Shown here: positions 17,382-53,703 of the stretch, piece by piece
Numbering within the stretch: the first letter of the stretch is position 1
Layout: each line of letters opens with the position of its first letter
DNA from: Solwaraspora sp. WMMA2065
GTDB taxonomy: Bacteria > Actinomycetota > Actinomycetes > Mycobacteriales > Micromonosporaceae
Direction: 5' to 3'
Length of the DNA stretch: 64,000 nt
Assembly: GCF_030345075.1 (NCBI RefSeq)
Contig: NZ_CP128361.1
Location: forward strand, 5,952,001-6,016,000
Made by a program: the position numbers and the translations under genes
Notes under the pieces: generated by a model
Seen by the model: only the letters and a program-made list of their open reading frames with translations
What the model was told of the DNA's origin: nothing
Databases searched by the model: none

Positions 17382-17405
17382 ATGCCAAGGGGAAGGTCGC
17401 CGCCG

Positions 17406-26400: not shown

Positions 26401-28442
26401 GTGGTAACGCCCGGGTGTTCGACTACGACGGGTTGGGTCGGGCGTTGCGGGACGGCTGGGAGTACACCGGTCTGGGTAACCATCTCGCGCGGGACAGTTC
26501 CAACGCGTTGTTCACCCGGGATCCGGGTGGTGGTGTGGTCGGGGCGCGGCACAACACCACGCGCCGGTTGGTGTGGACGGATCTGCACGGTGACGTGGTC
26601 GCCCAGTTGAACCCGGCCGGGGCGTCGGTGACCGGCAGCCGCACCTATTCGCCGTTGGGTGAGGTGACCGCGGACAGCGGCATGCTCGGTGACCTCGGCT
26701 ACCAGTCGGAGTGGACCGACATCCGCAGCGGGCAGGTCAACATGCATGCCCGCTGGTACGACCCGGTGACGGCGCAGTTCGGTGCCCGCGACAACCTGAC
26801 CGTCAGCCCGGTGCCGGACTCGGTCCGGGCCAACCGCTACCAGTACGGCGACGGCAGCCCGTTGACGGTGGTCGACCCCACCGGCCACGTCGGAGAGCGG
26901 TTGACGAAGGGCTGGGACGACTTCACCGACTGGGCCGGCGACAGATGGGAAGACGTCACCGACTGGGTCGGCGACCGGTACGAAGACGCGACGAAGCTTG
27001 TCAACGACATCAAACAGAACGTGCAGCAGACGTACCAGGACGCCGCCCGGGCATTCGAAGCCGGTCTCGACCAGATCGGACAGTGGGCCCGTACGGCCCA
27101 TGACTGGATCGTCGAGCACAAGGCCGCGATCGTCGGCGCGATCGTCGGCATGGTCGTCGAGGCCGGCTGCCTGGTCGCGATCGGTTGGACCGGTGTCGGG
27201 GCGGTCGCCTGCGGCATGGTCGGCGGCATGACCGATGCCCTGGTCGCCGGCCTCATCGACGGCAAGAGAGGCTTGGAGCTGCTGCAGGACGTCGCGATCG
27301 GCGGCCTGGCCGGTGGCCTCGGCGGCGCCCTGCCGATGATGGGCCCCGCTGCCGGTAAAGCCCTCGGCAAGCTCGGCTCCACCGGGGCGAAGAAGGTCGC
27401 CGGTACGAGCCTCGGCAAGGCCGCCGCCAGGGTCGGCGCGAAGGCCGTCGCCGGGGCCCGGTCGTTCAGCCGGGCGGTCACCCGCAAAGCCGACGACGCG
27501 TCCCGGGCGGTGTCCCGCGGCTCCAGCCGGTCCACCCGGGAAGCCGCCGAACACACCGACGACGCCGCCCGCGCTGGCGGGAGCCGGGTCGACGACGCCG
27601 CCGGGACTGGTGGCAGCCGGGTCGACGACGCCGCCGACGGGACGGCGGACGGGGCCGCCGGCTGCATGCTGCACAGTTTCGCCCCGGACACCCGGGTGCG
27701 GATGGCCGACGGCAGCACCAAGCCGATCGGCGAGGTGGAGCTCGGTGACGAGGTGCTGGCGACCGACCCGGCCACGGGGCGGAGCTCCGCCCGGCCGGTG
27801 CGGGTGCTGCACGGTCACGTCGACCGGGAGTTGACCGATGTCACGGTCATCGACACCACGACCGGTGAGAGCGCGGTGGTCGAGACGACCGCCCGGCACC
27901 CGTTCTGGAATGTCGACACCAACAGGTGGACCGACGCCGCGGACCTGCGTCCGGGTGACCGGTTGCGCAGTCCGGACGGCGAGACCAGCCAGCGGGTCGC
28001 GGCGGTCCGGGTGTGGACCGGCCTGAAGTGGATGCGCGACCTCACCGTCGGCGGCGTCCACACCTACTACGTCCTTGCTGGTGAGGCGCCGGTCCTGGTG
28101 CACAACTGCAGCCGGAAGACCACGTTGCTCGGCCGGTTCGCGGACATCAAGCGGTACATGCTCGATCGGCCCAGTGGAGCCTTCGACGCGGACTTCCTGA
28201 ACATCAGGGGGACGTTGAACAACGGTAAGGGCGGCGTGGGTGGCTGGAACTGGACGCGGAACAAGCGGTTCATCAACGACGCTTTCGCCAACGGCAACGA
28301 GGTGCGGATCGTGACCAACCCCAACGTTCCGAACTATGCGGGTGGGAACGTGTTCCAGCGGGAGTTGAAGTACCTTCGGGACAAGGGCTACGGGTGGGCG
28401 CCCGTGGGTGACCACTGGTTGGTCACCAAGGTCCGACCGTAG
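17406..28442 (+). CDS. giant RHS/YD-repeat polymorphic toxin with LamG, lectin and Hint domains
   Basis: 3678 residues from ATG 17406 (GGGGAAGG upstream); ATG 17382 is the alternative. Domains: membrane or signal segment (about 25-50); DNRLRE-type domain (about 378-565); Fn3-like strands, then the RHS start ('EITRSYNSLDTRRSGAFGQG'); YD repeats; LamG 1 (about 922-1175); LamG 2 (about 1219-1568) interrupted by a ricin-type beta-trefoil (about 1342-1462, 'EQSW', 'RQQW', 'NQSW'); more YD repeats; LamG 3 (about 2109-2315); YD repeats; the RHS core ('ARWYDPVTAQFGARDNL', about 3115). A Gly-rich hydrophobic pre-toxin region and DDAA repeats follow. The Hint self-cleaving domain starts at Cys3420 and contains 'TARHPFW' and the terminal 'VLVHNC' (HN3566-3567, Cys3568). 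The last 111 residues are the toxin, family unknown. It is probably exported and shell-packaged, acting on neighbouring cells. Confidence 0.9.
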   Translation: MGTGRSTQQWTRAEQARLRAVWQRSVAGVATALVVLVGLTASAPPGAVQPGGEFPIGWLTSWLTDRPSWLLGLSGSPVELPTARVGDGAGPGGYVSSAATRASGGAGSAQELVDGLPGWATQPAVDRTVTPDTGSQFEPETSRRDARASRSNMDVYVNADGSKTAEISTGRVNYQAADGSWRPIDSTLTRRGDRWTVTDNSLGISLADTAEASPEPLVELTLPAGGSLGWSLAGAAAVTPTVTGATAIYPKVLPGTDLELVARPDGVKETLILASPRAASEWVFPLVLAGLTVRAGDGGSIELVDDAGEVAGSIPAPFMLDSSVDAKTGLPAQSPAVSMELVEVDGGPAIRLVADRAWLTDPARVFPVRVDPTVLADSEVDTDGDVFVDSDPDTDETVQDGNYLAIGVDEDGVKARTFLEFDISSELINATPTIRNARLELYLTYRPVCEQLPVGSHLVEKEWTVDELATASYPGPGVDTRYAPSLVESAWAQAVCTNSSVNPSVGRWGTYGLGRSLIGGWALGAPNFGLALDAVAATSPVTWALFTSSDYGSGQYAPKLVLELSGNLAPLVEARSPGPGTVISTLTPELLMSGRDLDGVFGMVYHIYVHDSDGDVIFSGTAAQPPGMKSASLTIPPGVLEWNQTYSWSVQPEDIIGAIVNGVLGARYPKYAFYTRAPQPALGSRLVQNPGVGYHPEIGNYTTSATDAQVAGLGPALEITRSYNSLDTRRSGAFGQGWSSLLDTQVVERRNWTGLLRTATVTYPDGSAAGFGPNTDGSFAPPSGRHEVLTAVKSGTTVTGYRLTVKHGTTYVFGRAAGGGVFKLTSVSDANGNTLTLTYNGSGLVSKLTSASGRSLTLTWGATASPSVGSHVTKVTTDPPTAGGGGYVWEYTYGSHDRLTKVCPPTASCTTYTWGNSVNQGANAVLNHAPSSYWRLNEPAGERWATSSVLDNGGTDLGFHQNTSAGVVPGVWSGSTSASTDFNGSSSRVRLPRRLVTDGAYQSISLWFRTTDTDQVLYSYQKDPITAGSTEDGFTPVMYVGASGKLRAKFWDGEFDTMVTAQRVDDGQWHHAVLAGAGDSQALYLDGARQDTADGIIDMFQYGGAANEYVGAGFLGGKWPDQSLHNPVVHLGFANFFDGQVADVAYFDHSLTGADVTELYTAATSQSWQLSKVTSAEGRTLASLSMDSVTGKLASVTDSNGGTWGLGTPRVAGTSAVYAAAVLSSEPTDYWRLRDAAGAQPVNETRQPSDSFESVRLGAAGPFADGTAAEFDGESSSVYVPGGRVMPAGPRSQELWFRTTATSGVLVGAPLPTLGGIPSPALWIDADGRLRGLTPSEDPNGPLTGIAGKCAEWDKADNSVRLRTCNGEWEQSWLFDRESQQLRQGTKCLGLTGQATGNGTLVQVQDCSSSSRQQWAPDRDAWRNVGAGRCLEVPGSLTTDGTQLAIRNCNDQANQSWAFALVSAVPVNDGKWHHAVLTASKESTGTAQSLYLDGVHVQTTTSAEPFDGAPPLSRASLGAGYVDNGWSGFPEEIWVALYAGSLAEVALYDRALSADEVALHYESVGRTVPLVVTAAGDEVAESSLSETAAGGLPVEVLPPGAVRVDEAAEHVQTTTVSNPVKIVSVTGPGGNEVSYSYDLVSGRRVSQTDALGQTTLYGYDTGGFTSLVYDPNGNVTRSVQDERGNTIQEVTCQDQAADKCSSSYYRYFWNSDNVADPRNDRLIELRGPGSDSAQDNEYLSRYSYDHKGNLTELRDPVGRQMRITYGVSGRSAGMPLRVLDFSAGSQEITYTTAGDVAGVLDAANAETTFTYDGLGRTLTETVVTSSFPQGRTTSFTYDSVGRVVTRTGPAVTDRVSGAVHRAVTRFSYSVDGFLVEERVSDASGGDVARVSTWSYDWHGRRSASVDAEGAVTGYGYDVYGHLVEQTDPDGVVNAYEVDVNGNVLSRTVKGFTGDPNDPTDPVDLVVESNVYDPAGRLASATDAMGFVTRYTYTDDGRTASVTRSDGDSSFLLEGNGYDAAGNLVEQVTDNGATVTAFEYDAAGRQVRSVLDPGGLERVSEVALSPADRVLSRVDRDAAGEALSVVDYAYDVLGRPVSQTRYLSADRMVTPVARWRLDEAGGTTAADSAGNSPGTATDVVWASDAERGRVASFNGSSSRIVTDAPVVDTTRPYTVAAWVKVDDVAADALVLEIPGSARLGRTAFLAALQLSFDSATDGWRMTMTEQVGPGAYVTRDQTFGQGTVQAGEWQHVAIGLNPLSGSTTVYLDGVYIGHFLALSNQARGGLRIGGGLKGAVSDLQIYQGVPGDDGWAAGVMAGAVPVADAGVSRTSYVVDEAGLATSVVDPLGQATFVEYDEADRPVVTTGPAVQVESGELDGPVVSARPVERVGYNTFGEVVAESDPNGAVTTFGVDRVGRPVEVRLPSYTPPGSLTPVTPVRTASYDSLGQVVSQTDPLGRVTEFDYDQLGRVVTRVAPDGGTSTARYDLVGNVLAVTDPTGAVAGSGYDFLGRVTSVSEAVRQTGQVHTTTVGYDAAGRLSSVRSPAGVTVGYGYNAAGEVTGVVDGAGQTRGVVHDGLGRAVKEVNPDGTYTTTGYDMLSRPVSAAAFRASGGAALATSSWTYDAAGNTVSATDARGTVTRFGYDAAGLLRTQSEPVDAATTIESSFGYDLAGNPTRFTDGRGQAFRSTYNVWGLPQSRIEPVTAAYPDAADRTFTTVYDVAGQPVSQRAPGGVARTLVYDDAGRLVRQSGSGAEAATTDRTYGYDAAGRLVEFSAPGGSNQVVYDDRGLPLSVTGPSGDAAFTYTADGLMASRDDAAGLTEYGYDGAGRLASVDNTDMGTAIGYTYDVMSAVSSMTFGTSGNRRVFAYDDLHRLTSDRLVSSGGSTIASISYGWDVNGNETSRTVTRGSSTTVNTYSYDLADRLTSWDDGNTTVGYRYDRAGNRTGVGDVDYVYDARNRLVSDSTGVGYQYTARGTRSAAGGAATVSDAFDQVVEHVPAGGNARVFDYDGLGRALRDGWEYTGLGNHLARDSSNALFTRDPGGGVVGARHNTTRRLVWTDLHGDVVAQLNPAGASVTGSRTYSPLGEVTADSGMLGDLGYQSEWTDIRSGQVNMHARWYDPVTAQFGARDNLTVSPVPDSVRANRYQYGDGSPLTVVDPTGHVGERLTKGWDDFTDWAGDRWEDVTDWVGDRYEDATKLVNDIKQNVQQTYQDAARAFEAGLDQIGQWARTAHDWIVEHKAAIVGAIVGMVVEAGCLVAIGWTGVGAVACGMVGGMTDALVAGLIDGKRGLELLQDVAIGGLAGGLGGALPMMGPAAGKALGKLGSTGAKKVAGTSLGKAAARVGAKAVAGARSFSRAVTRKADDASRAVSRGSSRSTREAAEHTDDAARAGGSRVDDAAGTGGSRVDDAADGTADGAAGCMLHSFAPDTRVRMADGSTKPIGEVELGDEVLATDPATGRSSARPVRVLHGHVDRELTDVTVIDTTTGESAVVETTARHPFWNVDTNRWTDAADLRPGDRLRSPDGETSQRVAAVRVWTGLKWMRDLTVGGVHTYYVLAGEAPVLVHNCSRKTTLLGRFADIKRYMLDRPSGAFDADFLNIRGTLNNGKGGVGGWNWTRNKRFINDAFANGNEVRIVTNPNVPNYAGGNVFQRELKYLRDKGYGWAPVGDHWLVTKVRP

Positions 28443-42563: not shown

Positions 42564-42966
42564 CCTGGTAGCCAACCCGCCGGTGGCCCATCGGCCGCCG
42601 ACAGTGGTCCCCCGTTCGGGCCACCGGTAGCCAACCACCCGGTCGGTGGCTGGTCGCGGAGGGCCATGTCCGGCGGGTCCTATCGGTGGTGGCGGCTCGA
42701 CGTGGTGGGCGTAAGATGCTCGTCGCGCTCCGAGAGCACAGTTGCCCTCGAAGCCGGCAACACGGACCGAAGTGTTTACTTAACGTGATCAGGCAAGTGC
42801 TATTTGTCACAGGTCGGGATAACCATCGCATCACACTCGCAGTGACGAGCCACCTGGGCTTTCTCTTTGCGTGGTGTCGTGATGGAATCTCGGGGGTCCG
42901 ATCCGCCCGGGTCGGCCGATGGGGTGTCCGGTGCAACGAACCGGCACCGATGAGGAGGGCGGTGAC
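42564..42966. other. 403-bp gene-free leader of the conservon
   Basis: Holds a direct repeat, GGTAGCCAACC at 42567-42577 and again at 42626-42636, each followed by a CCGGT. CCGGTGGC (42580-42587) and GCCACCGG (42620-42627) are complementary and may terminate the adenosine deaminase message. A relatively AT-rich patch at about 42770-42840 (with TTTACTTAAC and TTGTCA) probably contains the conservon promoter. No ORF is supported. Confidence 0.5.
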
Positions 42967-45900
42967 GTGAGCGAGCGGCCGAAGACGGCAGATTCATTCC
43001 TGTCGCGTCTCCGCCGGCCGGTTGGCCGGCTCAACGATCTGCCGATCTGGTCCAAGCTCGGTCTGATCATGATCGTGCCGACCCTGGCGACGATCGTGGT
43101 CGGTACCAACGGCCTCATCGGGCACCTGGAGACCGCTGGGAACGCGTCTCAGGCACGCACACTTGCCACCTTGGCCGCCGCCTCCGGCGACCTGGCCCAC
43201 GACCTGCAGAACGAGCGGGCCGCCGCAGTGCTCCTGCTCGGCACCGGCAACGAGCAGCGCCGGCAGGGCTACCTCGATGCGTACAACGCCCTGCACGGCA
43301 CCGTCGACGAGGCCCGGACGCCGTACTCGCAGCGCCGCGCGGAGCTGACCGACCTGCCGGTGAACTTCCGTAACCTGCTTTCCCGGATCGACCAGAACCT
43401 CGCCGACCTGCCCGGGGTACGCAGCCAGGTGGTCAACAGCGCCACCGCCGACGGCACCTACCGTCTCACCGAGGCCGCCCGCGCCTACGAGGTGCTGCTC
43501 AGCGACCTGCTCGACATCCGCGACTCGGCCGCCCAGCTGGCCAACGACACCGAGCTGAGCGACCACATGCGGGCCGCCGCTTCGCTGGCCCGCAACAAGG
43601 AGTTCCTCTCCCGTGAGCGGATCGTCGTGCTGCGGGCGTTCAGCCAGAACGCGTTGACCCCGTCACTGCGAACCGACTACATCAGTACCCGGGCCGGCCA
43701 GGCCCAGTCCCGGCAGAGCTTCGAGGCCGCCGCCGTCCAGGAAGACCTGGAGTTCTACAACCAGACGGTGGCCGGTCCGGCGCTGCGGGAAGCGGACACC
43801 TACGGCGGTTTCATCCGGGGCCAGAACGAAGAGTCGATGCGTGACACGCCGTTCGACGCCGACGCCTGGGACGCGGCGCTGACCGGACACGCGGACCTGA
43901 TCCGCACCGTCGAGCAGAAGATCGACAGCGACGTGGTCAACGAGGCCACCATCCTGCGCGACGACGTACAGCAGCAGTTGTTGATCGAGACGATCCTGCT
44001 GCTCGTCGTGCTGCTGCTGGCGATCCTCTTCGCTGCTCTGGTCGCCCAGGCGATGGCGCGTTCGCTGCGTGAACTGCGCCAGGGCGCGCTCGCTGTGGCC
44101 CAGCACGGTCTCCCGCATGCTGTTGCCCGACTGCGGGACCCGCAGGTCACCGCGCAGAGCTCGCCGATGCAACTGGCCAACCAGATCGCCGAGCCGCTGC
44201 CGGTCCGCAGCAAGGACGAGTTCGGTCAGGTGACCGAAGCGTTCAACGCGGTTCACCTGGAGGCGGTCAAGACCGCCGCCGAACAGGCCGCACTGCGTTC
44301 GTCGGTGTCGACGATGTTCGTCAACCTCGCCCGCCGGTCACAGATCCTGGTCGACCGGTTGATCGGCCACCTGGACCGGTTGGAGCGCGGCGAGGAGGAC
44401 CCGGACCGGCTCGGCGAACTCTTCCAGCTCGATCACCTCGCCACCCGGATGCGGCGCAACGACGAGAACCTGCTGGTTCTCGCCGGCGCGGACTCTACCC
44501 GCGTACAGCGTGAGCCGGCGGCACTGAGCGACGTGCTGCGCGCCGCGCAGTCCGAGGTCGAGCACTACACCCGGATCGAATTCGGGATGGTCGACCGGGA
44601 CATCGAGGTCGCCGCGCACGCCGTCAACGACCTGGTCCACCTGGTCGCCGAGCTGTTCGACAACGCCACGGCCTTCTCGCCGCCGGACTCGCAGGTGATG
44701 GTCGAGGCCCGCCGGGTCGGCGACCGTGCCGTGCTCTACGTCGAGGACCGCGGTATCGGCGTCAGCGCCGACCAGCTGCGGGAGCTCAACGACCGGTTGG
44801 CCAACCCGCCGATGGTCGACGTGGCAGTGTCCCGGATGATGGGTCTCGTCGTGGTCGCCCGGCTGGCCAAGCGGCACGGTGTCAAGGTCGAGCTGCGCCC
44901 AGCCGCCGACCGGGGCACAGTCGCCGACGTCACCCTGCCGACCTCGGTGCTGATTCCGCGGGCCCTCGCCGGCCGCAACGCCGCCCCGGCCGCGTTCGGC
45001 TCCGGTGGCGGCCAGGAGATGCCCGCCGTCGCCCGGCCGTCGTTCGCCGCACCCCTTGCGTTGGAGGGCGGCAACGGGCCGTCGGGCGGTGGCTTCGGCG
45101 GCCGACCGGCCGAGCCACCGGCACCGGCACCGGCCGGCCCCCCGCCACGACCGTTCGAACCGGCACCGATCAACGGTGGTGGCCCGGCGACCCCGCCGGC
45201 CGCCCCGGCCCGCCCGATGCCAGCCTGGTCGGACCTGACCGGAGCGACCAACGGCACGAACGGCGCCAACGGCTCCGACGTGCTGGGAGCCCCGCCGGCC
45301 AATGGCCAGCAGCGCACCGGTCCGCTGCCACAGCGCCGATCCAACGATCACTGGACAGTCGACGGCGAGGTGACCGGAGCGGCGCCCACCAGCGGCATCC
45401 CGCGTCAGGCCCCCACCTCGCCGGAGACCCACGGCGCGCCGACCGGCCACCAACCGGTCAGTGGGCAACCGTACGTCCCGCCGGTATCCGCACCCCCGGT
45501 CCGGCCGTTCTCGGCCCCGCCGGCGCCACCACCGGCAGCCGCCCCACAGCCCGCCGCGTTCCAGCAGCCGGCCAGCTTCCAACGCCCGACGCAGCCGCCG
45601 CCGCACCAGCAACGACCGGCGACACCGCCACCGGCTGCTCCGGCACCCTCGGCCGCGCCGCCGCCCAGCGCGGCACCACCGGCCTGGCCGCCGGTCGCGG
45701 CGGAGCAACGGGACACCCCGGCACCGCCGGTCCCGGAGAAGCTCGCTGCGGCGCTGGACATGACCGCCGAACTGCCGAGGGTGTCCCGGTCAGGTCCGGA
45801 CAACGCGGCGACCGCCCAGCACCCGACGATCACCCCGCCAGCGGCACCCAAGCAGTTCGCCGACGAGACCATGGAACTGCCGATCTTCCGCGAGCTCGAG

Positions 45901-46479
45901 TCGGCTTGGTTCCGGACCCGGCGCCCCACCGCAGACGAAGCGCGGGCGGCAGCGGGAGCAATGATCAAGCAGTCCGGTGGTGCGGCCTCGACCGCCACCA
46001 CCCAGCCGATCGCCAAGGTGGAGGCCTCCCAGCCACCCGCTCCGGCGACGGAATCCGGGACGACCACGGCTGGCAGGCCCGGTTCGTCGTTGCCGCGTCG
46101 ACCCGAGCCGGTGGCCGCCACCTCGCGGTCGGCTGCGGCCGGTGGCGGCGGTGGCGAGGGTCCGCAGGACAGCTGGCAGACCGCCGCAGACGACGGCTGG
46201 CGCGCGGCAAGCGCTGCGGCTGATGTCGAAGTGGCCGAAAAGACCCAGGCGGGCCTGCCCAAGCGGGTCCCGATGGCACAGCTAGTACCAGGTGGCGTAG
46301 ACAAGGCGTCAGGTTCGGTACAGCGTCGCACACCGGAAGCGGTCCGTGGGCTATTGTCCGCGTACCACCGTGGTGTGCAACGCGGCCGTACTCAGCCCAA
46401 GGACGACCACTCGACCAACCCGGGGGCGACCCCGGGAGGGCAGCAATCCTCGCAGGCTGGCAAGGAGCATGAGGGATGA
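42967..46479 (+). CDS. cvnA: conservon sensor histidine kinase (CvnA-like, nitrate-sensor type)
   Basis: 1170 residues from GTG 42967 (GAGGAGGG 7 nt upstream). A first helix (about 30-50), an extracytoplasmic helical sensor of the NIT type (about 60-330, with '[20 protein letters not shown]'), a second helix (about 338-362), then HAMP. The dimerisation region has '[19 protein letters not shown]'. The HATPase domain shows '[15 protein letters not shown]', '[12 protein letters not shown]' and '[11 protein letters not shown]'. A Pro-rich tail of over 300 residues ends in the blocks '[13 protein letters not shown]', 'DDGWRAA', '[15 protein letters not shown]' and 'YHRGVQRGR'. It signals to the three proteins encoded downstream. 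It overlaps cvnB by ATGA. Confidence 0.92.
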
Positions 46480-46880
46480 CAACTACGCAGGATCTCGGTT
46501 GGCTGCTGGCCAACTTCGCCGATCGCGTGCCGGGGGTCGCTCACGCGATTGCGGTCTCAGCGGACGGTCTGCTCCTGGCGGCGTCCCGGGATCTTCCCCG
46601 GGACCGTGCGGACCAGCTCGCGGCCATCGCCTCCGGACTGGTCAGCCTCACCCAGGGCGCGGCGCGGTGTTTCGAGGGTGGTGCGGTGCTGCAGACAGTG
46701 GTTGAGATGGACAACGGCTTCCTCTTCCTCATGTCGATCTCGGACGGTTCGTCGTTCGCGGTACTGGCCGCCCGAAGCTCTGACGTCGGCCAGGTGGGGT
46801 ACGAGATGGCTCTGCTGGTGGACCGGGTTGGCGAGGCGCTGACGCCAGCGCCCCGCACGGCCGCCGGAATGCTGGGCTGA
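46476..46880 (+). CDS. cvnB: Roadblock/LC7 protein (CvnB-like)
   Basis: 134 residues, a single Roadblock/LC7 domain: '[20 protein letters not shown]', '[20 protein letters not shown]', '[20 protein letters not shown]' and '[16 protein letters not shown]'. In conservons this protein is thought to bridge the kinase and the small GTPase. The start ATG overlaps the kinase stop. A strong hairpin separates it from the DUF742 gene. Confidence 0.95.
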
Positions 46881-46892
46881 CCACGCTGACGA

Positions 46893-46927
46893 GACCGGTG
46901 CCGGCGTCGACGACCGGCACCGGTCTA
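46893..46927 (+). terminator. 13-bp perfect hairpin inside the conservon
   Basis: Arms AGACCGGTGCCGG (46893-46905) and CCGGCACCGGTCT (46915-46927) with loop CGTCGACGA, in the 118-bp gap between cvnB and cvnC. No T-tract. It is probably a partial terminator or RNA-processing element tuning output within the operon. Confidence 0.65.
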
Positions 46928-46998
46928 GCAGAGAAGAACTGGACGCTACGAGCTCCGACAGGTGGAGCTGCGGGCAGGACGAGAGGGGGTGACGGCAG

Positions 46999-47376
46999 AT
47001 GACCGAGCGCGATGAACCGACCGGTGCTCTGGTCAGGCCGTACGCCGTTACCCGTGGTCGTACCCGGCCGAAGCTGGAAATCGCCCTCGAGGCGCTCGTG
47101 GAAACGACGGTGCGCGGCCGGTCCTCAGGCGCTGTGCAAGGCGGCTCGGGCCGGGAGCACCAATACATTGCCGCGCTATGTGACGGCCGGCTGCAGTCGC
47201 TCGCTGAGATCGCGGCGCGGATGCAGCTCCCACTCGGAGTAGCCCGGGTCATCATCGCGGACATGGCCTCGGACGGCCTGGTCGCGGTGTACGAGCCGAC
47301 ATCCTTGGACGACACGAACGACGCGGTGGGCACGGAACTGCTGGAGAGGGTGCTGAGTGGACTTCGCAGGCTCTGA
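46999..47376 (+). CDS. cvnC: DUF742 protein (CvnC-like)
   Basis: 125 residues. A basic N-terminus 'LVRPYAVTRGRTRPKLEIAL' is followed by a winged-helix-like DUF742 body: 'EHQYIAALCDGRLQSLAEIA', 'MQLPLGVARVIIADMASDGL' and 'LLERVLSGLRRL'. The role in conservons is adaptor-like and not well defined. ATG 46999 has GAGAGGGGG about 11 nt upstream. It overlaps the GTPase gene by 20 bp. Confidence 0.94.
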   Translation: MTERDEPTGALVRPYAVTRGRTRPKLEIALEALVETTVRGRSSGAVQGGSGREHQYIAALCDGRLQSLAEIAARMQLPLGVARVIIADMASDGLVAVYEPTSLDDTNDAVGTELLERVLSGLRRL

Positions 47377-47965
47377 CATGGCGCACCGCCCCATGGCCGG
47401 GCGCGTGACATCGGCGAAGATTGTGATCGCCGGTGGGTTTGGCGTCGGCAAGACGACGCTGGTCGGCTCGGTCTCGGAGATCACGCCGTTGACCACCGAG
47501 GCGATCATGACCTCGGCCGGTGTCGGCGTGGACGACACGCGACAGGTGCCGGGAAAGACGACCACCACGGTCGCCATGGACTTCGGACGTATCTCGATCG
47601 ACCGAGATCTGATCCTCTATCTGTTCGGTACGCCGGGCCAGACTCGATTCTGGTTCATGTGGGACGAACTGGTGCGAGGAGCGATCGGGGCGGTGGTGCT
47701 GGTCGACACCCGTCGACTAGCCGACTGCTTCGCGGCGATCGACTTCTTCGAGCATCGGCGGCTGCCCTACCTGGTGGCGATCAACTGCTTCGACGGCATG
47801 CAGTACCACGATCCGCAGGACGTGCGTGACGCGCTGGCCATCTCCAGCGACGTCCCTGTCGTCCCGTGTGACGCGCGGAACCGTGAGTCGACGAAGCACG
47901 TGCTGATCTCGCTGGTCGAGTACGTGCTGACCATGCGGCGTCAGCGCGCGGTGGCACCGGCCTGA
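47357..47965 (+). CDS. cvnD: conservon GTPase (CvnD-like)
   Basis: 202 residues from GTG 47357. P-loop 'IVIAGGFGVGKTTLVGSV' (about 23-40), a Thr-rich switch 'KTTTTVAMDFGRI', G3-like 'LFGTPGQTRFWFMW', and 'VAINCFDG' where classical GTPases have NKxD. This substitution is typical of CvnD proteins. The C-terminus ends 'LVEYVLTMRRQRAVAPA'. It is the probable output switch of the membrane-associated conservon complex. A strong terminator follows. Confidence 0.95.
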   Translation: MDFAGSDMAHRPMAGRVTSAKIVIAGGFGVGKTTLVGSVSEITPLTTEAIMTSAGVGVDDTRQVPGKTTTTVAMDFGRISIDRDLILYLFGTPGQTRFWFMWDELVRGAIGAVVLVDTRRLADCFAAIDFFEHRRLPYLVAINCFDGMQYHDPQDVRDALAISSDVPVVPCDARNRESTKHVLISLVEYVLTMRRQRAVAPA

Positions 47966-48010
47966 CCGCCCCGACCCACCCGGCACGGACTCTCCCGATC
48001 TGCGACCCGA

Positions 48011-48041
48011 ACCGGCGGCACCTGACCCAGGTGCCGCCGGT
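48011..48041 (+). terminator. terminator hairpin after the conservon
   Basis: Perfect 14-bp arms ACCGGCGGCACCTG and CAGGTGCCGCCGGT with an ACC loop, 45 bp after the GTPase stop. It could serve both convergent transcripts. Confidence 0.75.
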
Positions 48042-48183
48042 AGGTGTCGTTTGCGGCCGGCCCGCGTGTGGTGCCTGCCGACATCAGCGGGGTGGGAGCG
48101 ACATCGGCGTGGGCGGCAGTGGCACCTGCGGCAGGACGGGCGTTCCACGACGGGTGTACGGAGCACGGCGGGCACGACTCTCG

Positions 48184-48221
48184 GGCACCAGGCCCGAGCA
48201 GGCCGGCACCAGGCCCGAGCA
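48184..48221. repeat. 17-bp direct repeat, period 21
   Basis: GGCACCAGGCCCGAGCA occurs at 48184-48200 and 48205-48221, in the 216-bp gene-free gap between the conservon terminator and the convergent 820-aa gene. Confidence 0.6.
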
Positions 48222-48257
48222 CGCGGGTACCCGTCAGCGGCGGGTGGTGACCCCCGG

Positions 48258-50720
48258 TCAGGAGTGGTGACCGGCCGGTCGGTACTCGTACTCGCGGCCG
48301 TCGCCCTGTCCGCTCTGGTCCCGGCTGAAGTCCCATCCGCCGGCGGCTTCCCGGCCGGGCCGTCCGCCGACGGCGTACCCGCCGATCTCCTGACCTCGAC
48401 GCCAGCCCCGGAAGTAGCCGTTGGTGTGTTCGGCGATGCTCGCCGCGTCTCGGACGATCCGCAGCGGGCGCTCGTCGCGCAGCGGTGAGCCCGGAACCAG
48501 GTTGGCCTGCGGCACCCGCTTCGGTAGCCCGGCGTTGGTTGCGGCACCGATCGACGGCTGCGCGGCCAACTCGGCAGCCCGCCAGCCGTTGTCCGCCTGC
48601 GTCGCGAACTCCGCCCCGTCGGTTTCCGGATGCCGGACGAACCAGGCCGACCGTGCCGCCGCGAAGATCAGCAGGTCGCCGTCGCCCTCATCGGGTACGG
48701 GCGGGGCGCTCAGCGGCTCTACGGCGGCCCGACGGCCGCGACCGTACTCGGTGGGCTGGGGAGCGTCCACGAGACGCAGCGGTGGAGTCTCCGCCGGGGC
48801 GTCGGGCCGGCTGTAGTCGTCGGGCCGGTAGCTGTCGGGCCGTCCGTAGCCGTCGGCTCGGAAGTCGTCCTGTCGGACCTGGTCGGCGACCGGCGGTTCG
48901 ACCAGACGCAGCATCGGTGGCTCCGGCGGCAGGTCGTCGGCCAGCCACGGTGGCTTGACCCGGCCGCTGTGCCCGTTGGACGCGGCCGGCAGGTGTTCCT
49001 CGTGCCCTCCCGGGTAGACCGGATCGGGCTCGTCAGCGCCGTCGGGACCGGGCGGCACCAGCGGCCAGTTGGACCGGGAACCGGGTGGTGACGACGTCGG
49101 CGGACCGGGTCGGGGGGCGGGAACGGGCAGGCTGTAATCGGTCGCGGAGAAGCCTCCGGTCGGCGGCTCGGCGAGCGGCGAACCACTGACCGGTGCTGCC
49201 GAGGCCGGTGCCCCGGACATCGGTGCCCCGGACATCGGGCTGCCAGAGACCGGGTGCGCCGACACCGGGGTCCCGGAGACCGGCGCCGTACCCGCCGGTG
49301 GCGCCGACTGTGGCGAGATGGTCGGGGCGGGGCCGGCCGGACCGGCACCTGCCCGGGTGTTCGGCCGAGGGGTGATCGGGGTCGGCCGGCGCTGTGCCCG
49401 CGCGTCGTTGATGGCAGCAGTGGTGAGCGTGGCGCGGAACGGCTCGCCGGCGTCCGCTGGTGCGATGCCGGGACGTTGCGCCGGCATCGGGGTCATCCCG
49501 GGCGGTGGCGGGGGAGGGGGAGGGGCGGACACCGGACGGTCGCTGCCCGGTTCGGCGGAACGCCGGGCCACCGGGGCGAGTGGGGTGAGTGGCGTCGGCG
49601 CGTTCGGCGGCGGCGCCACCGGGGCCGGTGCCACCGGCGGCGTGGTCATCGGCTGAGGGGAGGTGGGGGTGCCACCGCCTACCGGCTGCGGGCGGGCCCG
49701 CCGGCCGCCGGCGGGGGTGCGACTCGGGCCGGCGTCCGGGGCCGGCGGTACCGCGTGCAGCCCGGGTGCCGGCGGCCCGGAGGTCGGGTCGGCCGCCCGG
49801 CGCGCTGCGTGCGGCGCGCCGATCGGGGGCGGGGCGACGACCCGGGCGGTCAGGGTGGCGACCAGGGCATCGGCGGCGGCGTCGCAGGCCCGGACGGCGG
49901 CGACGGCGTGCCGCACCGTCTCGGCGGTGGCCGAGGTGAGCGCCTTGTTGACAGTGCTGCGGCGGGGCGACTCGACGATCGCCACCCGTAGGGCGGTCAC
50001 CGCCGCGTCGATGGTCTGCGCGTCGGCCACCCCGTCGGAGGCGAGGTGGGCGGCGACCGCGTCAGCGGCGACGGTGAGCTCGCGGTTGCGTGAGCTGGTG
50101 CCGCTGAGCATGCCCGGCTCCGGCAGGGCGTCGAGCACCGCGAGCGCGACCGGCTCGGCCGGGTCGGGGTAGGCCCGCAGCGCGGCCGGGTACAGCTCCC
50201 GGAGCACCTCGCGCAGTGCCACGGCGGCGGCCTGCCGGCCGTTGGCCAACGCGGCGTGCGCGGCCAGCACCGGCTTGTACGCGACAAGGTCGCGGGAGAC
50301 GGGCAGGGCCACCGCGGACATCGCCCCGGCCTGGAGCGACCGGGCCAGCCCGACGGCGCGCCGCTGGGCCGGCGCGGAGGACATCTCGTCCAGCGACTCG
50401 TCGTCGGCGAACCGCTCGGCGTAGTCGTCCGCGGCGTCGTCGTCGGCCACCGCGAGTGGGCGACCGGCAGCGGTCAGCAGCGAGGTGACGACGTGGTCGT
50501 CACTGTCGGCGGCGATGGCAGCTCCGCTCGCGCCACCCGACCGCTCGATGAGCATGCAGCTCAGCCGGGCGTAGCCAGCCGGGTCGTCGCCGATCTCGCA
50601 GACGTCGAGCAGCCGGCCGGCGTCGTCGACTATCGCGGCGGACAGGGCCGGACCGGTCGAAGCCGACCGGGCAGCCCGGTCCGCCGATGCCAGACCGCAG
50701 TACACCCGCACGAGCGCCAC
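48258..50720 (-). CDS. 820-aa proline-rich protein with a conservon-kinase-like C-terminus
   Basis: I chose GTG 50720 (GAGGAGG 7 nt upstream); ATG 50750 is also open. Residues 1-320 form an Ala-rich domain ('ALSAAIVDDAGRLLDVCEIG', 'DPAGYARLSCMLIERSGGAS', 'VALREVLRELYPAALRAYPD') whose order loosely resembles the RNase H-like DEDD domain of IS110-type transposases, but the acidic residues are not convincingly kept. A Pro-rich linker of about 380 residues follows. The last 130 residues carry 'DLLIFAAARSAWFVR', 'DNGWRAAELAAQ', '[15 protein letters not shown]' and 'YFRGWRRGQ', matching in order the tail of the facing conservon kinase. No signal peptide. Function unknown; a link to conservon signalling is inferred. 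Confidence 0.75.
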   Translation of the reverse strand: MALVRVYCGLASADRAARSASTGPALSAAIVDDAGRLLDVCEIGDDPAGYARLSCMLIERSGGASGAAIAADSDDHVVTSLLTAAGRPLAVADDDAADDYAERFADDESLDEMSSAPAQRRAVGLARSLQAGAMSAVALPVSRDLVAYKPVLAAHAALANGRQAAAVALREVLRELYPAALRAYPDPAEPVALAVLDALPEPGMLSGTSSRNRELTVAADAVAAHLASDGVADAQTIDAAVTALRVAIVESPRRSTVNKALTSATAETVRHAVAAVRACDAAADALVATLTARVVAPPPIGAPHAARRAADPTSGPPAPGLHAVPPAPDAGPSRTPAGGRRARPQPVGGGTPTSPQPMTTPPVAPAPVAPPPNAPTPLTPLAPVARRSAEPGSDRPVSAPPPPPPPPGMTPMPAQRPGIAPADAGEPFRATLTTAAINDARAQRRPTPITPRPNTRAGAGPAGPAPTISPQSAPPAGTAPVSGTPVSAHPVSGSPMSGAPMSGAPASAAPVSGSPLAEPPTGGFSATDYSLPVPAPRPGPPTSSPPGSRSNWPLVPPGPDGADEPDPVYPGGHEEHLPAASNGHSGRVKPPWLADDLPPEPPMLRLVEPPVADQVRQDDFRADGYGRPDSYRPDDYSRPDAPAETPPLRLVDAPQPTEYGRGRRAAVEPLSAPPVPDEGDGDLLIFAAARSAWFVRHPETDGAEFATQADNGWRAAELAAQPSIGAATNAGLPKRVPQANLVPGSPLRDERPLRIVRDAASIAEHTNGYFRGWRRGQEIGGYAVGGRPGREAAGGWDFSRDQSGQGDGREYEYRPAGHHS

Positions 50721-50779
50721 CGCGCCGTCCTCCTCCCGGACACCCGTCATGCCAAGGACTGATGGTCCCTGGTGAGGGG

Positions 50780-51793
50780 TCAGTCGCGCCAGTCCGCAGC
50801 GGCAGAGATCTTGCCGATAATCGTGCGCCAGCCGAGACTTGCCGTTTGTGCCCCGATTTTCTTCAACTTGCGGCGCGCCATGAAACCGCCGATGCCGCCG
50901 TCAACCGTCGACCTTAGCGCCTCGTCAAGATCGTCCAGCCTGGATCCGGTGGAGAGCATGTCCAGCACTGAGGGCATCCGCAGAGCGTACGCGAGGTCCC
51001 TCGCGACCTCGCCGGACTGGATCAGCAGCGCCGCGTCCCAGGCGTCGTGGCCGCCTCGCAGGTTCTCCACCACGAGATCGAGTTCGTAGGTGTCCTCCGG
51101 GAGCGCCGCGACGTCCGCCGGCTGCAGCCGGTCGACCAGATCCGGCCAGCTGTCCAGCTGCGCGAGGTCGTGCGACGCGCCGGACCGGACGAAACTGACG
51201 AGCGCCTCGGGGTCGCGGAACAGCAGCAGCTTGCCCCGGTGGCTGAGGAAGATCGGCACCTCTTCACCGCCGTCGGCCGACTCGGTGACATCGACATCGG
51301 CATCCGCATCGGCGACTTCGTCGGCGTCGTCACTCCCACCGGCTGCGTCACCCTTGCCGGCCTTGCCACCCTTGCCCGACTTGCTCGTTGACCCGGCCTG
51401 CTGCTCCTTCTCTTCCTCCGCGAGCGCTGCGGCGAACTCCTCGTCCAGGATGACCACGGACTCGTCGTCCTCGTCCTCCTCGGCGGCTGCCCGCTGCCGA
51501 GCGGCGAACAGATCATCCTCCTCGCGCTCGGAGATGTCGGTCGGGGTCAACGCGGCGGACGGCCGGTAGGCGCGCAGCGTGTAGCCGACGCCAGCCGGCA
51601 ACGCGATCTCGACCGGGTCGATCCGTACGTCCTGCCAGAGCGACCGGTCGGCGGCGAGCGCCGTGTCGTCGGGGTCGGATACGGTGTCGGCCGCTGCTTC
51701 GACGTCGGCCGTCGCGGCGTCCACCGCGTCGTCAGGACCCTCGGATCCGGCCGTGCGCCGGTCGGCATCGGGCTGGTTCGGCAACTTGGCCAC
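50780..51793 (-). CDS. acidic protein of unknown function
   Basis: 337 residues from GTG 51793 (GGAGG 5 nt upstream). The N-terminal half is acidic and low-complexity, with an Asp-rich run and a short Lys/Gly patch ('SKSGKGGKAGKG'). The C-terminal 165 residues look folded: 'PIFLSHRGKLLLFRDPEALV', 'LDSWPDLVDRLQPADVAALP', 'YELDLVVENLRGGHDAWDAA' and 'SLGWRTIIGKISAAADWRD'. I do not recognise a catalytic motif; relatives in this group of bacteria are sometimes labelled primosomal, without support I can see. It lies 59 bp upstream of the 820-aa gene on the same strand, probably one operon. Confidence 0.65.
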   Translation of the reverse strand: MAKLPNQPDADRRTAGSEGPDDAVDAATADVEAAADTVSDPDDTALAADRSLWQDVRIDPVEIALPAGVGYTLRAYRPSAALTPTDISEREEDDLFAARQRAAAEEDEDDESVVILDEEFAAALAEEEKEQQAGSTSKSGKGGKAGKGDAAGGSDDADEVADADADVDVTESADGGEEVPIFLSHRGKLLLFRDPEALVSFVRSGASHDLAQLDSWPDLVDRLQPADVAALPEDTYELDLVVENLRGGHDAWDAALLIQSGEVARDLAYALRMPSVLDMLSTGSRLDDLDEALRSTVDGGIGGFMARRKLKKIGAQTASLGWRTIIGKISAAADWRD

Positions 51794-51909
51794 GCTGACC
51801 TCCGTGTGTTCTCCGGTGACGGCGCCCAGACCCGGACTGTCGGGTGGGTGACTCTGCGCACACCCTAGTGGGCTGCCCGCCGTGTGGCATGCCCGGACCC
51901 CGTCCCGCC

Positions 51910-53703
51910 TCAGTTGGCTGCCGCCAGGTAACCCTGTTCGGCGGCCCGCTGCATGATCCACTGTTCCTGGTACCAGCCGGGCCGTCCGGTCAGCTCGGCG
52001 TGGTCGCCCCGTTGGACGATCCGGCCAGCGTCCAACACCAGGATCTCATCCATCGATTCGAGCCCGGTCAGCCGGTGGGTCACCAGCACCACGCTGCGGC
52101 CGTCGGCGGCGGCCAGCGCCGACGCCAGCACCGTGTCCGCCGTCGGCGGGTCGAGCCCTTCGGTGGGTTCGTCGAGGACCAGCACCGATGGGCCGACCAG
52201 CAGCGCCCGGGCGAGGGCGAGCCGCTGCCGCTGTCCACCGGAGATCCGGCTGCCGGCCGCCCCTACCAGGGTCTGCCAGCCGTCCGGCTGCTCGCGTACC
52301 CAGTCGAACAGGCCGGCCGCAGCCGCCGCAGCGGCGAGCTCGTCGTCGGTCGCCGTGGGCCGGCCCAGCAGCAGGTTGTCGCGAACTGTGGCGTTGAACA
52401 CGTACGCCTCGGCGAGCAGCCCGCCGACCAGCCGGTGCCGCCCTCCGGCCGGCACGTCGGCCAGGTCCACGTCGTCGACCGTCACCCGGCCGCCGTCCGG
52501 TGGCACCGCCCCGGTGAGCACGCCAAGCAGGGTGCTCTTGCCGGCGCCGCTCGGACCGACCACGGCGATCCGGCGATCGGGCGGCAGCGACAGATCGACC
52601 CGGTCCAACGCCGGCGACGCGCCGGCCCGGTATCGCACCGTGACGCCGTCGAGCACCAGCGTCGGCCGTCGGCCGTCGGCCGCCGCAGCGCCGACCGGGT
52701 CGGCCGCGAACTGTTCCGTCGTACGCGGCTCGGCGTCGGTCTGTCCGGCGTCGGCCTGTCCCGCTTCGGTCAGCAGGTCGGCGACCCGGCGCAGCCCGCC
52801 GCGCAGCTGTGCCCACTGCCGGGCGGCGGCGACCAGCGCCAGACTCATCTCGACGGCGGCCAGGGCACCGACCGCGAGGACGCCGACCAGTACCCCGCCG
52901 ACGTCGTCGCGCAACGCGGTCACCGTCACCGCCGCCACGGTCAGCCCGGCGACGAGCACGCCGACGCCGTCGACCGCCCAGCCGGTCGCCGCCAGCCGCC
53001 GCTCCAGCCGGGCGAGTTCCCGGGCCCGCCGGGTGCTCCGGCGCAGGGCGTCGGCGGTGCCGCCGAACGCCGCCAGGTCGGCCGCCCCGTGGATCAGATC
53101 GGCGCCGTCCGCCGCGAACTCGCCGCGCAGCGGCGCCACCCGGTCAGCCGTACGCCAGGTGAGCAGCGCCGCGACCGCCGGCAGACCGCCACCGGCGACC
53201 GCCAGCCCGGCCGCCAGTGTGAGCGCCGCCGCCGGGCTGACCGTCGCGGCGCCGGCGACCGCGAGCACCGCGACGGTGGCCGCAGCGGTACCGGGCACCA
53301 GCACCCGCAGCAGCAGATCCTGCACGGCCTCGACGTCGGAGACCAACCGGCTGAGGGCGTCGCCGGAGCGGTCCTCGGTGGTCGGCCGTCGCGCGGCCAG
53401 CGCGGTGAAGATCCGGAACCGTACGTCGGTGACCACCCGTAACGTGGCGTCGTGACCGGCCAACCGTTCCGTGTAGCGCAGCACGCCCCGGCTGATCGCC
53501 AGCGCCCGTACGCCGACGATCGCCACGGTGACCGCGTCCAGCGGCGGCCGACCAGCGGCGGTGATCAGCAACCACACGGCGGTGGCCATCAACGCGAGCG
53601 CGGCCGCCTCGGTCGCCGCGGCCAGCAGGCCGGCACCGACCAGCCGGCCGAGGTACGGCCGGGCCAGCGACAGCACGGTCCGCTCCGGCCGCACGCCGGT
53701 CAC
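51910..53703 (-). CDS. cydC: thiol reductant ABC exporter subunit CydC
   Basis: 597 residues from GTG 53703. An ABC exporter half: six membrane helices (about 15-310, 'RALAISRGVLRYTERLAGHD' is CydC-like), then the ATPase with Walker A 'VVGPSGAGKSTLLGVL', signature 'ISGGQRQRLALARAL', Walker B 'VLVLDEPTEGLD' and 'LVTHRL'. With CydD it exports cysteine or glutathione, needed for cytochrome bd assembly and redox control of the cell envelope. It overlaps cydD by GTGA. No cydAB is in the window. Confidence 0.9.
   Translation of the reverse strand: MTGVRPERTVLSLARPYLGRLVGAGLLAAATEAAALALMATAVWLLITAAGRPPLDAVTVAIVGVRALAISRGVLRYTERLAGHDATLRVVTDVRFRIFTALAARRPTTEDRSGDALSRLVSDVEAVQDLLLRVLVPGTAAATVAVLAVAGAATVSPAAALTLAAGLAVAGGGLPAVAALLTWRTADRVAPLRGEFAADGADLIHGAADLAAFGGTADALRRSTRRARELARLERRLAATGWAVDGVGVLVAGLTVAAVTVTALRDDVGGVLVGVLAVGALAAVEMSLALVAAARQWAQLRGGLRRVADLLTEAGQADAGQTDAEPRTTEQFAADPVGAAAADGRRPTLVLDGVTVRYRAGASPALDRVDLSLPPDRRIAVVGPSGAGKSTLLGVLTGAVPPDGGRVTVDDVDLADVPAGGRHRLVGGLLAEAYVFNATVRDNLLLGRPTATDDELAAAAAAAGLFDWVREQPDGWQTLVGAAGSRISGGQRQRLALARALLVGPSVLVLDEPTEGLDPPTADTVLASALAAADGRSVVLVTHRLTGLESMDEILVLDAGRIVQRGDHAELTGRPGWYQEQWIMQRAAEQGYLAAAN

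Follow-up and report, generated by a model that had tools for sequence, protein, structure and literature searches.

Accessory proteins of conservons (AGPS) are described in the accessible text of the CvnF8 paper (PMC13343842), which names CvnF, with a GAF domain, and CvnE, a cytochrome P450. For the conservon kinase, the sections of Wuichet and Sogaard-Andersen (2014) that deal with it (PMC4316618) report a conserved LPxR motif in the C-terminal extension; its arginine is singled out there since group 2 MglA and MglB are without a conserved arginine finger, and its function is put cautiously. A 2026 preprint on MfpD, in the excerpts available (PMC13015309), describes the long C-terminal domain of an actinobacterial kinase as without notable sequence conservation, and the accessible main texts of the CvnF8 and Cvn8 (PMC8510531) papers do not contain the term "C-terminal". 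The protein described here bears on the route by which conservon kinases signal to the GTPase module. Our window is a stretch of 64,000 nucleotides from Solwaraspora sp. WMMA2065 (contig NZ_CP128361.1, positions 5,952,001 to 6,016,000), in which a four-gene conservon, cvnABCD, is faced by an open reading frame (ORF) that we call P2. Counted from its first ATG, P2 has 830 amino acids (aa), not the 820 initially given. It ends in the tail of the conservon kinase, begins with a degenerate IS110 transposase core, and is probably an unrecognised part of the bacterial G-protein signalling system. Our preferred reading, which we hold to be about as likely as not, is that P2 serves the conservon as an accessory protein and docks by its tail on a Roadblock protein.

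The kinase CvnA runs from NIT through HAMP and HATPase_c to a Pro-rich linker and the tail, and the two genes together span 42919-50750, which is wider than the 45860..50720 assigned to the feature at first. In window coordinates the parts are as follows.

42919..46479, plus strand: CvnA-type sensor histidine kinase, 1186 aa (Pfam NIT 1.2e-40, HATPase_c 7.4e-13, HAMP 2.5e-6)
45877..45912, plus strand: CvnA tail motif 1
46174..46209, plus strand: CvnA tail motif 2
46249..46293, plus strand: CvnA tail motif 3, with the LPxR motif as published in the kinase sections of PMC4316618
46327..46389, plus strand: CvnA tail motif 4
48258..50750, minus strand: P2, 830 aa, degenerate IS110 core, Pro-rich linker and CvnA-type tail
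49812..50711, minus strand: P2 N-terminal domain, IS110 recombinase-like (predicted RNase H-like fold with long helices), catalytic residues replaced
48675..49811, minus strand: P2 Pro-rich linker, variable in both length and sequence
48639..48674, minus strand: P2 tail motif 1, LLIFAAARSAWF
48573..48596, minus strand: P2 tail motif 2, ADNGWRAA
48489..48533, minus strand: P2 tail motif 3 (LPxR)
48390..48452, minus strand: P2 tail motif 4, RDAASIAEHTNGYFRGWRRGQ
48261..48389, minus strand: P2 C-terminal extension (GGRPGREAAGGWDFSRD...)

Both tails come after long Pro-rich linkers and carry the same blocks in the same order: (L/P)IFxxxxSAWF, D-(D/N)-GWRAA, the LPxR block and a Tyr/Arg-Gly helix. 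BLASTP aligned CvnA and P2 with 30/73 identical residues (E=8e-10, composition-adjusted), and a local alignment of the C-terminal 216 residues of CvnA with the C-terminal 150 of P2 scored 134, compared with a maximum of 76 in 2000 shuffles; when both Pro-rich linkers were included the separation was smaller (281 versus a maximum of 243 in 500 shuffles). Profiles built from 20 P2 tails and 16 CvnA tails were matched by hhalign with a probability of 99 and E=1.9e-18 over 77 columns, which hold the last three motifs only. The IF-x4-SAWF motif is separated by a variable spacer in CvnA, and its support is the order of the blocks and its conservation within each family. Given these BLASTP, shuffle and profile-profile scores, we read the likeness of the two sequences as homology and not as low-complexity resemblance. 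The initial annotation had proposed that CvnA and the facing protein share a multi-block C-terminal module with the four blocks in this order at the end of long Pro-rich linkers, and it was right on both counts. Across the 20 P2 tails the four named residues of GLPxR (Gly, Leu, Pro, Arg) are the same throughout, as is the Pro that comes next, and P2 has both the GLP(R/K)R block and the Arg-Gly-rich C-terminal helix by which a conservon-kinase tail is recognised. The kinase-core hidden Markov model (HMM) matched none of 24 P2 frames (0/24), and neither HAMP nor HATPase_c was found in the window P2 (Pfam, E<=0.1); as the kinase core is not matched, P2 is not a CvnA.

That different N-terminal domains stand before the same tail had likewise been seen correctly; the identity of that of P2, a degenerate IS110 core, had been missed. 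The window P2 has no match at E<=0.1 in Pfam, NCBIfam or PHROGs, and it is tied to IS110 by the family profile and the fold, not by a Pfam match of its own. The N-terminal 300 residues form an IS110 transposase core. Pfam DEDD_Tnp_IS110 was matched at E<=1 by 8 of 20 P2 N-terminal stretches, the other 12, including the window copy, having no match; the best, in L057 (1.4e-10, 41.6 bits against a cut-off of 29), is the only one above the cut-off among the members whose bit scores were read. The P2 family profile in turn finds IS110 frames in genomes of the class at up to 3.8e-24, and the top frame is itself DEDD_Tnp_IS110 at 8e-38. In the AlphaFold2 model of the core (predicted local distance difference test score, pLDDT, 85.7; predicted template-modelling score, pTM, 0.79) an RNase H-like domain with long helices is predicted, and its seven best matches among solved structures are the ISCro4 and IS621 recombinases (best E=8.2e-4). 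The whole-chain TM-scores of these matches are low (0.31-0.35), so that the result ranks these recombinases first without superposing them closely on the model. Searching the solved structures with the sequence profile of the core returned one weak coiled-coil chain (E=0.015) and no IS110 recombinase.

We aligned 20 P2 proteins with 27 transposase frames and counted, in the DEDD columns that we take to be catalytic, the frames with a residue at each position. The first Asp is present in 26/26 transposases versus 0/20 P2 proteins, the Glu in 26/26 versus 0/20 (18 P2 proteins have Asp), the third residue of the tetrad (Asp3) in 24/25 versus 3/20 and the fourth (Asp4) in 24/25 versus 1/20. Transposase_20, which is present in the transposase L099, had no match in any of the 11 P2 proteins scanned at full length (the window copy and 10 relatives, out of 24 P2 frames). 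In 23/25 family genomes the P2 profile has a single match; a second, weak one turned up in G008 (5.7e-5) and in G022 (9.9e-4), that of G008 being an ordinary-length frame of 420 aa. By copy number P2 is neither mobile nor multicopy, and its locus is fixed in the core genera. Since the catalytic tetrad is replaced and Transposase_20 was not detected, P2 is, to judge by its sequence, a dead, domesticated IS110 core joined to a Pro-rich linker and a conservon tail; the core would be soluble and dimeric. Elsewhere in the window's genome there are five equal-scoring IS110-type frames (G000:C1 1295981, 2258934, 3924621, 4483448 and 4491051), probably copies of one element.

A core of this ancestry could in principle have kept an affinity for nucleic acid. 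IS110 recombinases bind bridge RNA and DNA (the top fold matches are, by title, IS621 and ISCro4 complexes), and conservons, according to the relevant passages of PMC8510531 and PMC4316618, alter gene expression without a response regulator. P2 might then be an output or input arm of the system, its former recombinase core binding DNA or structured RNA and its tail coupling that binding to the state of the G protein. We regard this as quite unlikely, in view of the degenerate tetrad, the lack of a Transposase_20 match and the spacers between genes in the window and in 15 relatives, where reading by eye, with no covariance test, found only terminator-like hairpins of the sort that gene ends have. 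On the same reading by eye the idea of a conserved bridge-RNA-like RNA beside P2 was set aside. The bolder version, in which the dead bridge-RNA-type core is a domesticated arm for sensing or targeting nucleic acid and the stolen kinase tail, standing in for the membrane sensor, feeds its signal to the Roadblock-GTPase switch, is very doubtful.

In the genomes searched P2 is confined to one family. Its core was found in 26/41 relatives, comprising 25/25 of the window's family and 1/16 outside it (G037), where the match is a plain IS110 transposase fragment. In the sample of the class the core occurs as P2 only in three family genomes; a profile match to the P2 core at E<=1e-6, of IS110 type, occurs in 23/391 other class genomes, and none of 27 loci (1.8-3.7 kb) of IS110-like frames from these other-family genomes has the tail. 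P2 outside the family is ruled out for the loci fetched, their frames being without the tail. Within the family the tail is present in 24/24 P2 genes readable to the end, the 25th (G008) running off its contig. From 212 related stretches in named genomes 80 loci were kept. They belong to Micromonospora (69/80), Plantactinospora, Verrucosispora, Phytohabitans, Salinispora, Asanoa and one Micromonosporaceae bacterium, which identifies the family as Micromonosporaceae. In 18 of these named loci the contig ends within P2, and 62 are complete; all four tail motifs are matched in 59/62, and in the other three the tail is encoded behind a frame break (L205, L211) or shows motifs 3 and 4 (L210).

The tail itself reaches beyond P2 and is typical of conservon kinases. 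The P2-tail profile matches 174/394 class genomes; at most 12 candidates per genome were scored, so that counts per genome are minima. Usable regions with wide flanks were fetched for 18 of the 174 tail-positive genomes, and the 19 tail frames in them are 16 kinases and 3 frames that overlap a kinase ORF in another frame. Over all loci scanned, 69 frames bear the tail: 40 have the kinase core, 24 the P2 core, and five are fragments. Of these fragments L225 and L230 lie at contig ends, while those in L124, L125 and L128 are read in a different frame from the kinase ORF that they overlap. A third tail architecture was looked for among these 69 frames and none was found. Conversely, 46 ORFs have the conservon kinase core, and the tail is found by HMM in 40 and in an overlapping frame in 3; the 3 that miss it are all in the window's genome, two having a divergent GLPxR and one nothing clear. 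The second conservon kinase of that genome has all four blocks, slightly altered, and the third a divergent GLPRRVRQ version.

Several smaller observations belong beside this survey. Kinase core and tail lie in different overlapping frames in L124, L125 and L128, by sequencing error or real frameshift, and the kinase frame of L128 contains a masked stretch. Three to four tail frames at a spacing of ~10-18 kilobases (kb) occur in G094:C19, G189:C1, G253:C7, G296:C12, G344:C9, G360:C3 and G406:C21, genomes of another family, and look like conservon arrays. In the window's genome a 556-aa open frame beside a divergent conservon kinase (L228) contains the fifth DUF742 match (G000:C1:6444323-6444664).

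The remaining conservon genes of the window lie between cvnA and P2.

46476..46880, plus strand: CvnB, Roadblock/LC7 (Pfam Robl_LC7 8.6e-23); start codon ATG, in a 4-base overlap with the cvnA stop
46999..47376, plus strand: CvnC, DUF742 (Pfam DUF742 2e-28)
47357..47965, plus strand: CvnD, MglA-like small GTPase (Pfam ATP_bind_1 5.2e-34)

This arrangement recurs. P2 is convergent with a conservon in 18/18 assessable core genomes, the window included, and in 54/54 named loci with more than 4.5 kb downstream, and a conservon faces P2 in 3/6 divergent genera (L058-L060). In the named loci, two frame-broken ones left out, the gap between P2 and the conservon is from 162 bases to ~2.3 kb. The co-occurrence search suggested in the initial annotation, which had named a lack of recurrent linkage as one of the outcomes that would speak against it, therefore returned recurrent linkage, all within one family, and P2 shows the recurrent linkage to cvnABCD that marks a conservon accessory protein. 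In six loci (L049, L050, L053-L056), which are the gaps above 1.2 kb that were read, a gene for an ABC-type substrate-binding lipoprotein of ~410-450 aa, recognised by eye, lies between P2 and CvnD; in the window's genome a gene of similar look (L013 11315-12652) lies beside the second conservon.

On its other side P2 has an equally constant neighbour.

50780..51961, minus strand: SatS-like gene, 393 aa, co-directional with P2 and 29 bases upstream of it (NCBIfam NF050072 7.9e-9)

A SatS-like gene lies upstream of P2 on the same strand in 76/77 assessable named loci and in 5/6 divergent genera. P2 could accordingly work with this gene in an envelope or export function, with the conservon a mere neighbour. 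Such a partnership leaves the conservon-kinase tail of P2 unexplained, and the match, a faint likeness to the mycobacterial export chaperone SatS, reaches 34.9 bits where the cut-off is 700; we hold the partnership to be highly improbable. The cdd-deoA-add genes beyond the SatS-like gene presumably resemble the satS neighbourhood of M. tuberculosis. Elsewhere in the window a 3686-aa ORF (17382-28442, plus strand) has a coding-like GC content at third positions.

The clearest pointer to a partner for the tail of a conservon-associated P2 comes from the six divergent genera (L057-L062). There P2 is shorter, and a Roadblock/LC7 gene follows directly on the same strand in 6/6 (Pfam 4.1e-17 and 2.7e-16 in the two scanned). 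In 4/6 the P2 stop and the Roadblock start share the sequence ATGA or GTGA; in one the two genes abut, and in one they are 15 bases apart. The overlap parallels the 4-base overlap of cvnA and cvnB in the window. A Roadblock gene also comes directly after 38/38 tail-bearing kinases with room downstream. In L057, L061 and L062 P2 and the Roadblock gene stand without a conservon alongside, the nearest DUF742 gene being ~13 kb away (G019, whose genome has a single one), ~175 kb away (G010) or on other contigs (G018). Because the DUF742 genes of these three lie elsewhere, the smallest unit that travels with P2 in the divergent genera is tail plus Roadblock; and because three genera keep P2 and Roadblock with no conservon alongside, gene order points to a Roadblock of the CvnB type, over CvnC or CvnD, as the partner. 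The C-terminal extension of P2, GGRPGREAAGGWDFSRD, is conserved in the core-genus tails read and absent from the six divergent genera, the same six that keep the P2-linked Roadblock gene.

In the mechanism that we propose, an IS110 core, stripped of its catalytic residues and of Transposase_20, would have become attached through a Pro-rich linker to the LPxR tail in which a conservon kinase ends. The tail would most likely dock on a Roadblock (MglB-like) protein, which in the divergent genera would be the dedicated one encoded directly behind P2 and in the core genera the CvnB of the facing conservon. P2 would occupy this docking site in trans, competing with CvnA or bridging to it, and might thereby adjust the control that CvnB exerts on the GTPase CvnD. 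In one passage of PMC8510531, citing Komatsu et al., CvnA9 binds CvnB9 and CvnC9, and in another sentence of that text all four Cvn proteins interacted with one another.

The LPxR arginine makes the GTPase the main alternative target. On that account the tail would act on CvnD (or on the DUF742 protein CvnC) in place of a Roadblock, the arginine aiding GTP hydrolysis or exchange in trans, and P2 would be a soluble regulator of CvnD. The kinase sections of PMC4316618 point to this arginine, as group 2 MglA and MglB are without an arginine finger; the GLPxR residues and the next Pro do not vary in the P2 tails, and a full conservon faces P2 in the core genera. The three divergent loci that have P2 and Roadblock with no cvnC or cvnD alongside speak against it, though DUF742 genes occur elsewhere in their genomes, as does the passage in PMC8510531 that lists only CvnB9 and CvnC9 as bound by CvnA9. 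We consider this account unlikely.

Profile and tree comparisons of the Roadblock proteins bear on docking in the core genera. With the profile of the P2-linked Roadblocks the best core scores are 100-110 bits versus 249-262 bits in G010 and G013, and the best match is the facing CvnB in 13/13 assessable core genomes searched, by small margins. In a tree of 48 of 53 rows (five near-identical rows of the same genus dropped), the six P2-linked proteins form one clade apart from CvnB (100/100, with a bootstrap that had not settled) on a branch of 1.82; the group of facing CvnBs also takes in that of G019, where CvnB and P2 are not opposite each other. As the P2-linked clade lies outside the facing CvnBs in this tree, P2 and its Roadblock are unlikely to stem from a recent copy of cvnB and the 3' end of cvnA in the facing conservon, even though the profile puts the facing CvnB ahead of the other remaining Roadblock genes.

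A number of results count against P2 as a conservon accessory protein that docks on Roadblock. The linkage lies within a single family, 69/80 named loci being of one genus, and none of it is independent of shared ancestry, so that it attests lasting retention rather than repeated association; in 3/6 divergent genera P2 has no conservon beside it; and P2 may instead serve the SatS-like gene, whose linkage (76/77) is just as strong. No P2-linked Roadblock gene lies directly after P2 in 18 core genomes, and that type was not found genome-wide in 13 assessable core genomes or in G008, so that the partner of the window's P2 is only presumed. The tree puts the P2-linked Roadblocks on a long branch and not as a recent copy of the facing CvnB. 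Finally, when the L061 P2 tail and its Roadblock were folded as a single chain, the Roadblock was confident and the tail was of low confidence, with means of 36-72 over 10-residue blocks; the alignment had 32 rows, unpaired apart from that chain, with the Roadblock as a monomer and contacts not readable. Of the suggestion first made for this locus, an unrecognised conservon component with a common docking partner, the shared module and the recurrent linkage stand, and the partner is presumed; the fold gave no confident docking, which neither supports nor refutes it.

The order IS110 core, linker, CvnA tail and Roadblock is the remnant expected of an insertion, and for this reason we infer that an IS110 element inserted into a conservon kinase gene was its source. 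A stricter form of this history would make P2 a mere relic of such an insertion into a duplicated kinase gene, with tail and neighbourhood passively inherited and no present role in the conservon. The tail-then-Roadblock order of the divergent genera fits an insertion into cvnA upstream of cvnB, and the linkage is confined to one family. Yet P2 is retained in 25/25 family genomes, and the tail is kept in core genomes that have no P2-linked Roadblock gene. Moreover, the ratio of nonsynonymous to synonymous substitution rates (dN/dS; Nei-Gojobori, six overlapping pairs of six sequences) was 0.10-0.32 for the tail, 0.11-0.25 for the core and 0.24-0.52 for the linker, the tail lying below the linker in each of the six pairs. 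The P2 tail is under purifying selection, and we deem a relic very improbable.

Taking P2, then, as a candidate accessory protein that docks on Roadblock, its closest counterparts are CvnE and CvnF. As described in the accessible text of PMC13343842, these too are accessory genes adjoining cvnABCD, and CvnF8 binds and stimulates its CvnA. They are the fifth gene of the operon and accompany kinases without a NIT sensor domain, whereas P2 is convergent to the conservon, faces a NIT-bearing kinase and, unlike either, carries the kinase's own tail; neither a GAF nor a cytochrome P450 domain was matched in the window P2 or in 10 full-length relatives. In the literature searched, mostly without subscription papers, there was no report of a P2-like protein or of an IS110 core domesticated for signalling. 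The LPxR part of the tail was already published, in the kinase sections of PMC4316618. The GLPxR block of P2 fits that kinase extension as described there. That text describes LPxR in kinases, whereas P2 is a non-kinase with a larger module of three further blocks, two of them in the profile-profile match. P2 turns the unexplained LPxR motif into a testable docking site, and a second protein with the kinase's tail alone offers a clean way to find its binding partner.

The P2-linked Roadblocks recall the orphan actinobacterial MglB clade outlined in PMC4316618, as they also form a clade of their own and three of six are away from conservon genes; this is a likeness only, and the other three do face a conservon. 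With the IS110 transposases and bridge-RNA recombinases (IS621, ISCro4) P2 shares the N-terminal fold, the helical region and profile matches; it differs from them in the replacement of the catalytic residues in all or most members, in having no Transposase_20 match among 11 scanned, in its fusion to linker and tail, and in its fixed locus. We file P2 as a conservon accessory component distinct from CvnE, CvnF and the transposases.

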